Part shown: positions 55,801 through 61,800 of the stretch, piece after piece | How positions within the stretch are numbered: position 1 is the first letter of the stretch | Layout of the letters: every line of letters begins with the position of its first letter | Origin: Bugula neritina | Lineage: Eukaryota; Bryozoa; Gymnolaemata; Cheilostomatida; Bugulidae | Direction of reading: 5' to 3' | NCBI GenBank assembly: GCA_964035545.1 | Contig: OZ037770.1 | Coordinates: 13,391,642-13,455,641 of the forward strand | DNA: 64,000 bases | The notes under the pieces: model-generated | Databases searched by the model: none | What the model saw: the letters and a program-made list of their open reading frames with translations, nothing else | Told to the model about the DNA's origin: nothing | Program-made: the position numbers and the translations under genes

Positions 55801-58800
55801 CCTGGTTGCCATAAACCACAGGAGACGCGTCATATACTGCACTTGTAGAATCTAAATAATAAACATTTTGACAGATCAAATTTATTATTTTCATCTTCTA
55901 GCACTAACACTACATTATTATAGCGTATTATTATACTCTATTATACATTCTATCTGATATATAAATTATATAAAATATGCATATTAATAAAAAAATAATT
56001 TATTTTTCCAGTAGTTCAACTAGATTAACTTTCAGAGATGAGCTCAATCCAATAGAACCTTTTTATTTAGAGCTAAAATTTAAGAAAGTTAGTCCTTTGG
56101 TTTTTCTTTTCTGTAAATGTACAGATTTGAATTTAAAAAAAATACAATTTATGTTGATTTATTCACCAAATGCTAACAGAACAGGTTGGGGAGCCATAGT
56201 TCCATATACTTTAACTTCTCTCATGCAACACCATCCATTGTCATCTCTTTGAATTTTCACATATTTGACAATACCAGAAGTGGTACCGTCTAGAGTGACT
56301 GTGTCGGAGGTTGCTAATGCATCTCCAGTGTTACCAAAATAGTTGTCAAGGTCACTTGTCGATGCCCCATATGTCACGGTCAGTTTGTTTATCTGGTTTG
56401 CTAACCAAAAATAGGAAAACAAAACATGAAAAATATGAAAAAAGATGAGCAAATGCTAAACAGGAATTTATTAGAAGTAGTATTATTACTACAGGCCTCA
56501 AATTATTATGCTGTAAAATTAAACAATTTAATTGTAAGTTTAAAGGTTTATTTTCAATTAGGTATAAGTTTTTACTTTAGCTGCACTCTTGAAACACATC
56601 TGCCAAAAATATTTTACCCAAATAAGACCAATGAAGCATTCATATAAAAGTGACAAGCCCTAATACAAGAATGGTAAAAGTAACGCTAAGGTACAAGTGG
56701 TCAAGGGAGTACAATGTGAAAATTGTTACCATAATCATGATTGCCCTCTATTATAACCTGTGTCACAATACTGACTGTGCTTTGCAGTTGGATCACAATG
56801 TATGCATTTACCTAAAACGAAATAGTAAACACTATATGCATATCAATATATAAATATATAAATAAATATATATATATATATATACATAAATATATATATA
56901 TATACGTATATATATATACATATATATATATATATATATATATATATATATATATATATATATATATATATATATATATATATATATATATATATATATA
57001 TAAGTAATGAGTAATAATAAAGTTTGATTTAGAACACTTTATTACTCATAGTTTCATGTGCATTGCATATACACAATTTTCATTTGAAATGTTGACATTT
57101 TATCTGAAGATGGCGTATATACAATGCACATGAAACTATTAGTAATAAAGTGTTCTAAATCAAATTTTATCGTTCATTACTTTTGTCACTTTGCTCCGCT
57201 CTGCATTGAGCTCTTTTCAGTTTCTAACTACACACCATTACATATATATATATATATATATATATATATATATATATATATATATATATATATAATATAC
57301 ATAATGTAATCTATAGTAAAATAGAGAAAACAGAAAGTACATTGTATGCGGCTTGTTGTAAGCAGGCATCGGTGTTCCAATTTCCATCAACTGCATGCCC
57401 AGGCACCTGGTTGCCATAAACCACAGGAGAGGCGTCATATACTGCACTTGTAGAATCTAAATAATAAACATTTTGACAGATCAAATTTATTATTTTCATC
57501 TTCTAGCACTAACACTACATTATTATAGCGTATTATTATACTCTATTATACATTCTATCTGATATATAAATTATATAAAATATGCATATTAATAAAAAAA
57601 TAATTTATTTTTCCAGTAGTTCAACTAGATTAACTTTCAGAGATGAGCTCAATCCAATAGAACCTTTTTATTTAGAGCTAAAATTTAAGAAAGTTAGTCC
57701 TTTGGTTTTTCTTTTCTGTAAATGTACAGATTTGAATTTAAAAAAAATACAATTTATGTTGATTTATTCACCAAATGCTAACAGAACAGGTTGGGGAGCC
57801 ATAGTTCCATATACTTTAACTTCTCTCATGCAACACCATCCATTGTCATCTCTTTGAATTTTCACATATTTGACAATACCAGAAGTGGTACCGTCTAGAG
57901 TGACTGTGTCGGAGGTTGCTAATGCATCTCCAGTGTTACCAAAATAGTTGTCAAGGTCACTTGTCGATGCCCCATATGTCACGGTCAATTTGTTTATCTG
58001 GTTTGCTAACGAAAATAAAAATCAATACATGAAAAATATAAAAAATATAAGCAAATGCTCAACAGGATTTTATTAAATATAGTAACATTGCTACAGGCCT
58101 CAAACTATTTTGCTGTGAGACTAAACATTTTAATTGTAGGTTTAAAAGTTTATTTTCAATTTAGTAAAAGTTTTTACTTTAGCCTCGCTCTTAAAATACA
58201 TCTGCCAAAAATATTTTACCCAAACAAGATCAATGAAGCATTAATATAAAAGTGACAAGCCCTAATATAAGAATAGTAAAAGTAACACTAATATAAAAGT
58301 GGTCAAAGGAGTACAATGTAAAAGTTGTTACCATAACCATAATTGCCCTCTATTATAACCTGCGCCACACTGCTGGCTAAGCTTTGCAGTTGGATCACAA
58401 TGTATGCATTTACCTAAAACGAAATAGTAAACACTATATGCATATCAATATTACGCTCTCATTTAATGCTCAGCAATGACATTAAATGATTGAGCACTCT
58501 CACCATGGTCACAAACTCAAGCTGCTAGCATTTTGCAATGCTCGTGACTCCTAGGTGACCCCTAGAGTCACTTGAGCACTCTGGCTTGAGTTTACACACC
58601 TTTTAAATATGCTTTAGTAAAACTATAAGTTTTACTATTGCGAAGGTGTGGGCCATGGTACTCTGTTCTGTGCTGATGAGGGGACAAATCCCGAAACAGC
58701 TGCTGTCCACAGATTGAGATATTACGCTCTCATTTAATGCTCAGCAATGACATTAAATGATTGAGCACTCTCACCATGGTCACAAACTCAAGCTGCTAGC

Positions 58801-61800
58801 ATTTTGCAATGCTCGTGACTCCTAGGTGACCCGTAGAGTCACTTGAGCACTCTGGCTTGAGTTTACACACCTTTTAAATATGCTTTAGTAAAACTATAAG
58901 TTTTACTATTGCGAAGGTGTGGGCCATGGTACTCTGTTCTGTGCTGATGAGGGGACAAATCCCGAAACAGCTGCTGTCCACAGATTGAGATATAAATATA
59001 TATATATATATAAATATATATATATATATATATATATATATATATATATATATATATATATATATATATATATATATATATATATATATATATATATATA
59101 TATATATATATATATACTTAATGCTCAGCAATGACATTCAGTGATTGAGCTCTCTCACCATGGTCACAAACTCAAGCTGCTAGCATTTTGCAAGGCTCGT
59201 GACTCCTAGGTGACCCCTAGAGTCACTTGAGCTCTCTGGCTTGAGTTTACACACCTTTTAAATATGCTTTAGTAGAAACATAAGTTTCTACTAATGCGAA
59301 GGTGTGGGCCATGGTACTCTGTTCTGTGCTGATGAGGGGACAAACCCCGAAACAGCTGCTGTCCACAGATTGAGGTATATATATATATATATACATATAT
59401 ACATATACATATATACATATATATATATATATATATATATATATATATATATATATATATATATATATATATATATGTATATATATATATGTATATATGT
59501 ATATGTATATATGTATATGTATATATCTATATATATATATATATATATATATATATATATATATATACATATACATATATATATATATATATATATATAT
59601 ATATATATATATATATATATATATATATATATATATATATATATATATATGTATATAATGTAATCTATAGTAAAATAGAGAAAACAGAAAGTACATTGTA
59701 TGCGGCCTGTTGTAAGCAGGCATCAGTGTTCCAATTTCCATCAACTGCATGCCCAGGCACCTGGTTGCCATAAACCACAGGAGAGGCGTCATATACTGCA
59801 CTTGCAGAATCTGAATAATAAACATTTTGACAGATCAAATTTATTATTTTCATCTTCTAGCACTAACACTACATTATTATAGCGTATTAGTATACTCTAT
59901 TATACATTCTATATGATATATAAATTATATAAAATATGCAAAATATTAAAAAAATAATTTATCTTTCCAGTAGTTCAACTAAATTAGCTTTCAGAGATGA
60001 GCTCAATCCAATAGAACCTTTTATTTATAGCTAAAATTTAATCTCGAAAGTTTGTCCTTTTGTTTTTCTATTCAGTAAATGTACAGATCTGAATGTAAAA
60101 TAATCTGATTTATGTTGATTTATTTACCAAATGCTAAAACAACAGGTTGGGGAGCCGTAGTTCCATATACTTCAACTTCTCTCATGCAACACCATCCATT
60201 GTCATCTCTTTGAATTTTTACATATTTGACAAGACCAAAAGTGGTACCCTCTACAGTGACTGTGTCGGAGGTTGCTAATGCATCTCCAGTGTTACCAAAA
60301 TAGTTGTCAAGGTTACTTGTAGATGCCCCATATGTCACGGTCAACTTGTTTATCTGGTTTGCTAACCAACAATAGGAAGACAAAACATGAAAAATATAAA
60401 AGAGATAAGCAAATTCTAAACAGGATTTTATTAAATGTAGTAATATTGCTACAGGCCTTAAACTATTCTGCCATGAGACTAAACATTTTAATTGTAGATT
60501 TAAAAGTTTATTTTCAATTTACTAAAAGCTTTTACTTTAGCTGCACTCTTGAAATACATCTGCCGAAAATATTTTACGCAAACAACACCAATGAAGCATT
60601 AATATAAAAGTGACAAGCCCTAATATAAAAATAGTAAAAGTAACACTAATGTAGCAGTGGTCAAGGGAGTGCAATGTAAAAGTTGTTACCATAATCATGA
60701 TTGCCCTCTATTATAACCTGTGTCACACTGCTGACTGTGCTTTGCAGTTGGATCACAATGTATGCATTTACCTAAAACAAGATAGTAAATATTATATACA
60801 TTTAAATACAGATATAAATATATATAAATATATTTTATTTACAAAAGTAATGAGTAATAAAATTTGATTTAAAACACTTTGTTACTAATAGTCTCATCTG
60901 CAATGTATATACACAATCATCAGATAGAATCTTAATATTTCATTTGAAGATTGTGTATATACAATGCATATGAAACTATTAGTAATAGAGTGTTCTAAGT
61001 CGAATTTTATTGTTCACTTTATATATATATATATATATATATATATATATATATATATATATATATATATATATATATATATATATATATATACATATAT
61101 ATATATATATATATATACATATATATATATATATATATATACATATATATATATACATATATATATATATATACATATATATATATATATATATATATAT
61201 ATATATATATATATATACATATATATATATATATATATATATATATATATATATATTTAAATATATCTTTACGAGCTAGCAATTTGATTATAAATAGGTA
61301 TACGAGAAACATTGTTGATTTATTACTTTATTAGGTAAAGTAATTTTACTGATATTTCGGGTACCACTGTACCCATCTTCAGAGTAGCAATGGAGATGGG
61401 TACAGTGGTACCCGAAATATCAGTACAGTCATTTTACCTAATAAAGTAATAAATCAACAATGTTTCTCGTATACCTGTTTATATATATATACATATATAT
61501 ATATATATATATATATATATACATATATATATATATATATATATACATATATATATATATATATATATACATATATATATATATATATATATATATATAT
61601 ATATATATATATATATATATATATATATATATATATATATATATATTCATATGTTGTAATCAATAATAAAATAGAGAAAACAGAACGTACGTTATTTGCG
61701 GCCTGTTGTAAGCAGGCATCGGTGTGCCAATTTCCATCAACTGCATGCGCAGGCACCTGGTTGCCATAAACCACAGGAGAGGCGTCATATACTGCACTTG

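Follow-up and report, generated by a model that had tools for sequence, protein, structure and literature searches.

A retrozyme-like hammerhead repeat of Bugula neritina and a resident Penelope-like element with a common target and end-site motif

Two insertions of a 271-bp hammerhead repeat

We analyzed a 64,000-nucleotide stretch of contig OZ037770.1 of Bugula neritina (the window), in which a 271-bp unit is present in two insertions (Table 1). COX1 confirmed the species at 100% identity; a protein search with a short host gene did not point to it. The initial annotation had described three direct repeats of about 271 bp at this locus. The units themselves are real, but they represent two separate insertions and not a single trimer: Tandem Repeats Finder reported a period of 271 with 2.0 copies and 99% matches (span 58448-58993), and the third unit, truncated at its 5' end, lies on the far side of an (AT)n tract as an insertion of its own. 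Unit 1 (260 bp, 58448-58707) and unit 2 (271 bp, G+C 43.2%) are distinguished by a single position, u126 (C/G), in keeping with the near identity already noted for this pair. Two empty paralogous flanks reveal the 5' boundary only, a target-site duplication being unreadable inside (AT)n. Stop-to-stop frames of at least 60 aa that overlap the element continue into the AT tracts. The host had been read as a lectin gene, an assignment that we could not confirm: Pfam identified no lectin domain in the single exons or in one joined peptide of the host gene, and PAN_1, in an exon near the element, was the only domain found.

Table 1. Features of the repeat locus and of its empty paralogous flanks (window positions)
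Feature	Position	Strand	Remark
Insertion 1: partial unit (u12-u271), full unit and 11-nt 3' end (u1-u11)	58448..58989	+	2.0 turns of the predicted 271-nt circle
Motif and hairpin, unit 1: TTACGCTC (58451-58458) ... GAGCACTCT (58492-58500)	58451..58500	+	Common to Penelope end sites
Type I hammerhead 1: helix I TCTGTG/CACAGA, helix II GGGG/TCCC, helix III ACAG/CTGT	58667..58713	+	Predicted cut after 58707; Rfam sub-threshold only
Full 271-bp unit (u1-u271)	58708..58978	+	Predicted self-cleaved monomer
Motif and hairpin, unit 2 (58722-58729 ... 58763-58771)	58722..58771	+	As in unit 1
Type I hammerhead 2	58938..58984	+	Predicted cut after 58978; sequence features
Last 11 nt at the 3' end, CACAGATTGAG, from the ribozyme cut to (AT)n	58979..58989	+	Putative start of reverse transcription at its end
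(AT)n tract separating both insertions	58990..59116	.	Target microsatellite
Insertion 2: one 5'-truncated unit, from about u27	59118..59374	+	95.0% identity to unit 2
Type I hammerhead 3, in insertion 2: helix II GGGG/CCCC	59323..59369	+	Predicted cut after 59363; sequence features
(AT)n tract 3' of insertion 2	59376..59657	.	
Paralogous intron flank without element	53418..53487	.	Empty-site reference; 100% identical to 58381-58450
Second paralogous empty-site flank	56779..56848	.	100% identical to 58381-58450

The type I hammerhead claimed for every unit was recovered, with TCTGTG, CTGATGA, helix II, GAAA, helix III, GTC, and CACAGA following one another in this order in 3/3 units. We then searched the 216-Mb assembly for the 35-base hammerhead core with up to three mismatches and obtained 527 matches, compared to 0 for the reversed control, indicating that the core occurs more often than expected by chance. 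Covariance models, which the initial annotation had suggested as a check, did not corroborate it: no Rfam family matched at the gathering threshold in the whole window, and no hammerhead was reported for 58400-59420 with E values up to 10. On a 91-base stretch, the best model was RAGATH-1-hammerhead, in the expected register (15.2 bits, E 1.5), followed by Hammerhead_3 (12.8 bits, E 2.4), both far below the cut-off. Minimum-energy folding of a 69-nt piece favored a non-hammerhead fold (-16.3 versus -10.1 kcal/mol), and in a 271-nt circle the hammerhead fold costs 3.7 kcal/mol (-93.3 versus -97.0). The pieces folded no better than their shuffles (z of -0.47, -0.92, and -0.85). An apparently lower substitution rate in the hammerhead than in its flanks was dropped as evidence, the copies having been chosen by exact hammerhead match and AT flanks having leaked into the alignment. 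The repeats and the type I hammerhead arrays are nevertheless confirmed.

Genomic copies with one fixed and one variable end

Searching the assembly with the whole unit gave at least 71 matches, with 40 of 661 candidates scored, and the copies were spread over nine contigs among the matches listed; together with the core matches, this bears out the prediction of further genomic copies. The arrays comprised 0.17 to 3.06 units (67 sampled arrays). Their 3' end was fixed about 11 nt beyond the ribozyme cut in 65/67 arrays, 49 of them ending at u15, 5 at u13 or u14, and 11 running through u271 to the same site. A stretch of (AT)4 or more lay within 30 nt 3' of the array in 63/67 cases, compared to 1.0 to 4.2% of 30-mers in four backgrounds. 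Similarly, 19/20 arrays of a later test set ran into (AT)n, which started 9 to 13 nt past the cut in 18 arrays and 5 nt past it in one; the exception, L111, continues beyond the end site.

The 5' ends, by contrast, were variable. An AT repeat directly abuts the 5' end in 37 arrays, and 36 of these have 1 to 4 nt in common with it, whereas uniform starts would leave 26.5 of 37 with no shared nucleotide.

The element is dispersed, recently active and apparently gene-less, and its 271-bp unit carries a type I hammerhead and forms short arrays; this supports the reading as a metazoan non-LTR retrozyme, as proposed initially and as such elements are described in the available account (PMC7229834). 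The same account notes that animal hammerheads were first known from satellite repeats, and tandem 271-bp units would also suit an ordinary satellite spread by unequal crossing-over, its hammerhead-like motif retained by descent with no retroelement cycle. We regard this as very improbable, as the junctions already contradict it: one end is fixed and the other variable, the paralogous flanks are empty, and the copies are short arrays dispersed over several contigs and not long homogeneous ones lacking a fixed end.

A Penelope-like element with the same target and motif

Generic hammerhead patterns were also searched in the genome. The pattern CTGATGAGN{3,10}CGAAAC matched 8 places, compared to 2 in the control, and CTGATGAGHN{2,18}DCGAAAC matched 21, compared to 4; the latter led to two Penelope families, PLE1 and PLE2. 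Two further loci (L106 and L107) resemble degenerated Penelope copies of a third type, and two others (L108 and L109) look like chance matches to the pattern.

PLE1 (L094/L130) harbors an intact reverse transcriptase (RT) ORF of 714 codons (P0001) with a YRDD motif. Pfam gives P0001 no name, while a sequence search returned 2056 related proteins, a group which we take, partly from general knowledge, to be of Penelope type; on sequence grounds, the ORF qualifies as a Penelope-type RT. The aligned stretch of a relative from Solemya velum (P0003) passes the Pfam GIY-YIG model PF01541 (26.2 versus 22.6 bits), whereas P0001 itself does not. We had earlier read the genome as devoid of Penelope elements, its one GIY-YIG Pfam hit being taken as host SLX1; this reading was given up once the Penelope ORF, which Pfam misses, had been found. 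The PLE1 hammerhead matched Rfam Hammerhead_1 with an E value of 9.7e-5, below the cut-off of that model. PLE1 has a hammerhead-bearing pseudo-LTR with an optional tail and two end classes, and L130 is a tandem copy. All 11 of its 3' ends (7 short and 4 long) lie in (AT)n, as did the long end in 20/20 cases of a prospective set.

Directly 3' of both PLE1 end sites and of the retrozyme end site, we found the motif AT(N)TTACGCTC...GAGCACTCT. With a slash marking the end, the three sites read CTA/ATGTTTACGCTC (PLE1 short), ACT/ATTTTACGCTC (PLE1 long), and GAG/ATATTACGCTC (retrozyme). Two collinear shared 9-mers were matched in 2 of 20000 mononucleotide shuffles, the motif having been defined post hoc from sequences already seen. 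The ordinary alignment score of the retrozyme and PLE1 tails was modest (reached by 67 of 5000 shuffles), and the alignment of the retrozyme with the PLE2 tail was not significant (530 of 5000). Folding predicts the motif hairpin at the retrozyme site, the short PLE1 site, and the PLE2 site, but neither at the PLE1 long site nor in the degenerate third family.

As far as genomic copies can tell, the retrozyme hence combines a fixed 3' end, a variable 5' end, an AT target, and read-through of the cut site with a coexisting Penelope-like element that has the same target and motif. The start signal and landing sites being common to both, the Penelope enzyme probably mobilizes the retrozyme. SINE-like hijacking of LINEs is common, and RT genes are abundant in this genome (at least 150 RVT_1 matches, among 2124 candidates). 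A genuine retrozyme moved by a LINE or another non-Penelope RT, its motif and AT target being convergent, therefore has to be considered. We judge it improbable: among the top-scoring RT families, five non-LTR groups (10 loci) end in short repeats like (ACAA)n, (GTAA)n, and (AC)n and none in (AT)n, which argues against a LINE partner, while PLE1 matches the retrozyme in its target, in a hammerhead located just upstream, and in the motif present at its two end sites. The fixed 3' end, the AT-microsatellite target, and the Penelope link are all absent from the initial annotation.

Proposed cycle and comparison with known systems

We propose, with a probability of roughly 0.75, that the element is an animal (non-LTR) retrozyme, with the resident Penelope RT inserting copies of its predicted RNA circle at AT microsatellites. 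An array would be transcribed, and its hammerheads would cut the RNA into 271-nt monomers, which a host ligase would close into circles. The PLE1 RT-endonuclease would recognize AT(N)TTACGCTC...GAGCACTCT and nick an (AT)n microsatellite. Copying would begin at the base just before the motif, the target AT end possibly being paired to AU of the retrozyme RNA. It would then traverse the ribozyme backwards and continue along the circle, covering anything from part of a turn to some three turns. The far end would finally be joined to the AT tract via short homology.

Crossing of the cut site fits uncut multimers as well as a circular template. The template may thus be an uncut linear multimeric transcript, with hammerhead cutting incidental and no circle formed. 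This agrees with the more stable competing fold of the 69-nt piece and with the Anolis Penelope, for which insertion in vitro is reported to be unchanged by ribozyme mutants (PMC11167929, as available). Two observations speak against it, each with a confounder. Among 64 arrays, 32 are shorter than 0.95 turn, 9 exceed 1.15, and 21 fall at 0.95 to 1.07, as expected for a single trip round a circle, a peak confounded by an ATAT at u12. Furthermore, both units of L049 have five private variants in common and the three units of L029 are identical, although in some arrays units differ from each other as much as between arrays (9/173 in L015, 9/255 in L049). On balance, we consider the linear template unlikely, though less so than a LINE partner, and retain the circle.

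The mobilizing enzyme of animal retrozymes and the route from circle to DNA were left open in the accounts available to us, with Penelope suspected (PMC7229834, PMC7761336). In the B. neritina genome, a retrozyme coexists with a Penelope-like element whose ORF is intact, and the two have a target, an end-site position, and a short motif in common; the Penelope idea can therefore be put to a direct test using a single protein and two RNAs. What is new is this evidence on the mobilizing enzyme, as the element itself belongs to a known kind, the retrozymes. The searches we ran found no literature joining bryozoans with hammerhead ribozymes.

More tentatively, and at somewhat less than even odds, animal retrozymes could stand in the same relation to Penelope-like elements as SINEs do to LINEs: the Penelope RT would read a short signal just 3' of the hammerhead, align the microsatellite end in a somewhat telomerase-like manner, and copy the ribozyme-made circle repeatedly. 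A circular route of this kind may also serve Penelope elements themselves, as one PLE1 copy (L094) likewise begins at the signal and terminates past its own hammerhead. In SINE-LINE pairs, the region recognized at the 3' end of the autonomous partner is also present in the nonautonomous element. In the B. neritina RNA, by contrast, the signal is found downstream of the point that becomes the 3' end of the insertion, and the putative partner has a Penelope-type RT.

Plant LTR retrozymes are likewise hammerhead-processed nonautonomous retroelements thought to use circles, but they are described as having type III hammerheads, LTR-like repeats, 4-bp target duplications, and Gypsy machinery (PMC7229834, PMC7761336, in the parts available); in the B. 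neritina element, the open helix is helix I, and there is no LTR arrangement. In Anolis, the Penelope RT has two internal start sites on its RNA and cuts AT-rich DNA (PMC11167929, as available). Anolis Poseidon resembles the B. neritina system in its hammerhead near two RT start sites (the short end and the "tail"), internal start, AT-rich target, and tandem copies. The B. neritina retrozyme differs in having apparently no ORF and a single end site, and its putative start adjoins 2 to 4 nt matching the target, while the Anolis start site is reported there as nonhomologous to the cut DNA.

Among the closest known systems are the metazoan non-LTR retrozymes, described as units of about 170 to 400 nt with low G+C, a type I hammerhead, short tandem arrays, and no coding capacity, coexisting with hammerhead-carrying Penelope-like elements (Cervera and de la Pena 2020, PMC7229834, as available). 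The B. neritina element is alike in unit size, G+C content, hammerhead type, short arrays, dispersal, and a coexisting Penelope. In that account, target duplications, when present, are larger (over 4 bp), and the RT is left open, with Penelope suspected. Beyond what is described there, the B. neritina retrozyme has a fixed 3' end, an (AT)n target, and the end-site motif of a resident Penelope.

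Anatomy and ribozyme of the window insertions

The initial annotation had described three direct repeats of about 271 bp, each carrying a complete hammerhead, the first two being nearly identical. All three repeats are present with the hammerhead order, but they make up two insertions. We numbered the unit from the first base past the predicted cut (u1, position 58708) to u271 (58978). Units 1 and 2 differ at a single position, as their reported near-identity implied, and (AT)n follows both insertions. The 5' boundary of insertion 1 was set at the ATATATAAATA tract by comparison with empty paralogous introns. 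The retrozyme-bearing intron seems to lack the unique stretch found between two AT tracts in its paralogues, as if this had been lost via the AT tracts.

Coordinates of the insertions and other features in the window
Feature	Position	Strand	Remarks
Insertion 1	58448-58989		u12-u271, full unit, u1-u11
Insertion 2	59118-59374		starts at about u27
Flank of insertion 1	58381-58450		
Empty counterparts of this flank	53418-53487; 56779-56848		100% identical, paralogous introns
Compared part of the retrozyme-bearing intron	58448-59657		
Compared regions of paralogous introns, with the unique stretch	53487-54074; 56848-57302		between two AT tracts
Exon pairs duplicated in tandem	50289-62468	minus	introns near-identical
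PAN_1 exon	62100-62468	minus	22.9 bits
30-bp minisatellite	10009-10289		9.4 copies, 100% matches

All three window copies show the full hammerhead order, as the initial annotation described. Helix I is TCTGTG/CACAGA and helix III is ACAG/CTGT; helix II is GGGG/TCCC except in insertion 2, where it is GGGG/CCCC. The suggested Rfam check failed, the models not reaching their cut-off on the window hammerheads. Other genomic copies, also sought, were found, with the hammerhead core (up to 3 mismatches) giving 527 genome matches versus 0 for the reversed pattern. The helix III strand of the retrozyme is nearly its own reverse complement (10/11 letters), as are those of three Penelope-type hammerheads (8/9, 10/10, and 10/10). 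This would fit hammerheads acting as dimers, an action that an excerpt of PMC7229834 reports for amphibian retrozymes. Folded as a circle, the unit is predicted to be far more stable than 100 shuffled versions (z -7.4), and the hammerhead costs 3.7 kcal/mol relative to the minimum-energy fold. Within the hairpin u181-u202, three copies harbor a matched one-base insertion on both arms (AGTAAAAC/GTTTTACT to AGTAGAAAC/GTTTCTACT), and in eight the insertion is confined to the 3' side.

The assembly holding the window (216 Mb, 295 contigs; here G000) includes a 15.2-kb contig that is mitochondrial by its coding content, and the mitochondrial COX1 is 100% identical to that of Bugula neritina over 447 residues. 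A second full COX1 match (G000:C6:11174072-11175412; 433.3 versus 435.4 bits for the mitochondrial one) is either a nuclear mitochondrial copy or an assembly error. More COX1 genes on contigs C17, C65, and C196, one without TGA codons and the others apparently split, perhaps come from associated organisms.

End sites, AT targets, and array length

Junctions were analyzed at 60 sites (L015-L074; contigs C1-C3). These have the lowest coordinates among the exact core matches in a listing of the first of the 527 places, and together with the window they give 67 arrays (insertions of any unit count). One common end site was found in 65/67 arrays, the exceptions being L032, a 50-bp fragment, and L042. 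An (AT)4 or longer repeat lay within 30 nt downstream of 63/67 arrays and within 30 nt upstream of 52/66, compared to 99/9994, 537/12794, 98/5350, and 103/8806 30-mers in four backgrounds. For one diverged copy (L071, 76.9%), the surrounding tract is (TG)n and not AT. The end-site rule was obeyed by 19/20 sites of a second set on C4-C5, fetched once the rule had been formed; in this set, the AT tract begins earlier at L118, and L111 extends past the site to the motif, beyond which other sequence follows.

Lengths were analyzed in 64 arrays, after leaving out two with less than 90% identity and one with a masked flank. Expressed in turns, that is, 271-nt circuits of the inferred RNA circle, 32/64 measured less than 0.95, 21/64 between 0.95 and 1.07, and 9/64 more than 1.15. 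The 5' start fell at u9-u12 in 19 of the 64, and 36 of the 37 arrays with AT at the 5' junction had 1 to 4 letters common to the element and the AT repeat. Units diverged by 0.0145 per site within arrays (13 pairs) versus 0.0251 between arrays (2712 pairs). Private variants common to an array's units numbered five in L049, one in L062, and none in the other pairs.

A probable Penelope-like partner and its end sites

A search for further hammerhead-like motifs (21 places versus 4 in the control) led to L094, a locus of the Penelope-like element PLE1 with an ORF of 714 codons. This ORF has 2056 relatives, among them Solemya velum proteins, and a protein of the bryozoan Watersipora subatra matches it at 53% over 99%; the PLE1 product contains YRDD and a putative GIY-YIG-like C terminus. 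L130 is a tandem copy (98.6% between the ORFs). The PLE1 ORF is followed 3' by a hammerhead, which scored E 9.7e-5 in 161 bases against Rfam Hammerhead_1 and did not reach the cut-off, and then by two alternative ends. Among 11 hammerhead copies, seven end at the short site (L102 slightly before it) and four at the long site, all with (AT)n at the end. The second family, PLE2, has three short and two long ends, with (AT)n in 5/5. Head-to-head pairs of Penelope copies, 3' ends outward, occur at L094, L095, L096, and L105, each with one short and one long end.

The RNA past each PLE1 end site can be read from the internal sequence of L130. With the slash marking the end, the short site reads CTA/ATGTTTACGCTC...GAGCACTCT, the long site ACT/ATTTTACGCTC...GAGCACTCT, and the retrozyme site GAG/ATATTACGCTC...GAGCACTCT. 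The exact junctions are uncertain to within a few bases, since AT that belongs to the element blends into the tract. Two collinear 9-mers of the retrozyme recur in the tail at the PLE1 short site, a match equalled in 2/20000 mononucleotide shuffles. When a 3485-bp stretch of the L094 Penelope was scanned (3' tail excluded), two collinear 8-mers were found in 11/1710 windows, overlapping and all at the motif 5' of the ORF; on the retrozyme circle, windows beginning at u134-u139 match as well. The unit contains a second GAGCACTCT at u138-u146, without TTACGCTC upstream. Local alignment gave weaker results, the retrozyme scores being equalled by 67/5000 shuffles for PLE1 and 530/5000 for PLE2, whose match to the retrozyme is limited to TTGAGCACT and GCTC. 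For three end sites (retrozyme, PLE1 short, and PLE2), RNAfold predicted a GCTC/GAGC stem whose 3' side has a two-base bulge; it did not predict this stem at the PLE1 long site. Genome-wide, the pattern TTTACGCTCN{5,34}GAGCACTC occurred at 60 places versus 0 in the control, by our count 54 of short-site type, 4 of long-site type, and 2 retrozyme variants. In the 100 bases 3' of 20 previously unseen short-site-type places, all 20 ended as CATTTTACT/(AT)n.

Proposed route of integration

We propose that the Penelope reverse transcriptase would copy retrozyme RNA in a target-primed manner, starting just 5' of the motif on a circle or else on an uncut multimer. Target-primed copying by this enzyme is the simplest account. 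Pairing with the AT target and the circular template are its less certain parts, because an excerpt of PMC11167929, which deals with Penelope alone, describes for Anolis Penelope a start site without homology to the cut DNA and a ribozyme not needed in vitro.

The anatomy of the retrozyme is ordinary for its known class; its sequences offer unusually clear evidence on the mode of integration and on the partner. The reverse transcriptase that moves retrozymes is left open in the excerpted text of PMC7229834, and a preference of Penelope elements for simple AT-rich targets is reported in part of PMC3846280. The proposed route agrees with what the excerpt of PMC11167929 describes for the Anolis Penelope protein: copying begins internally, two sites serve as starts, and AT-rich DNA is cut.
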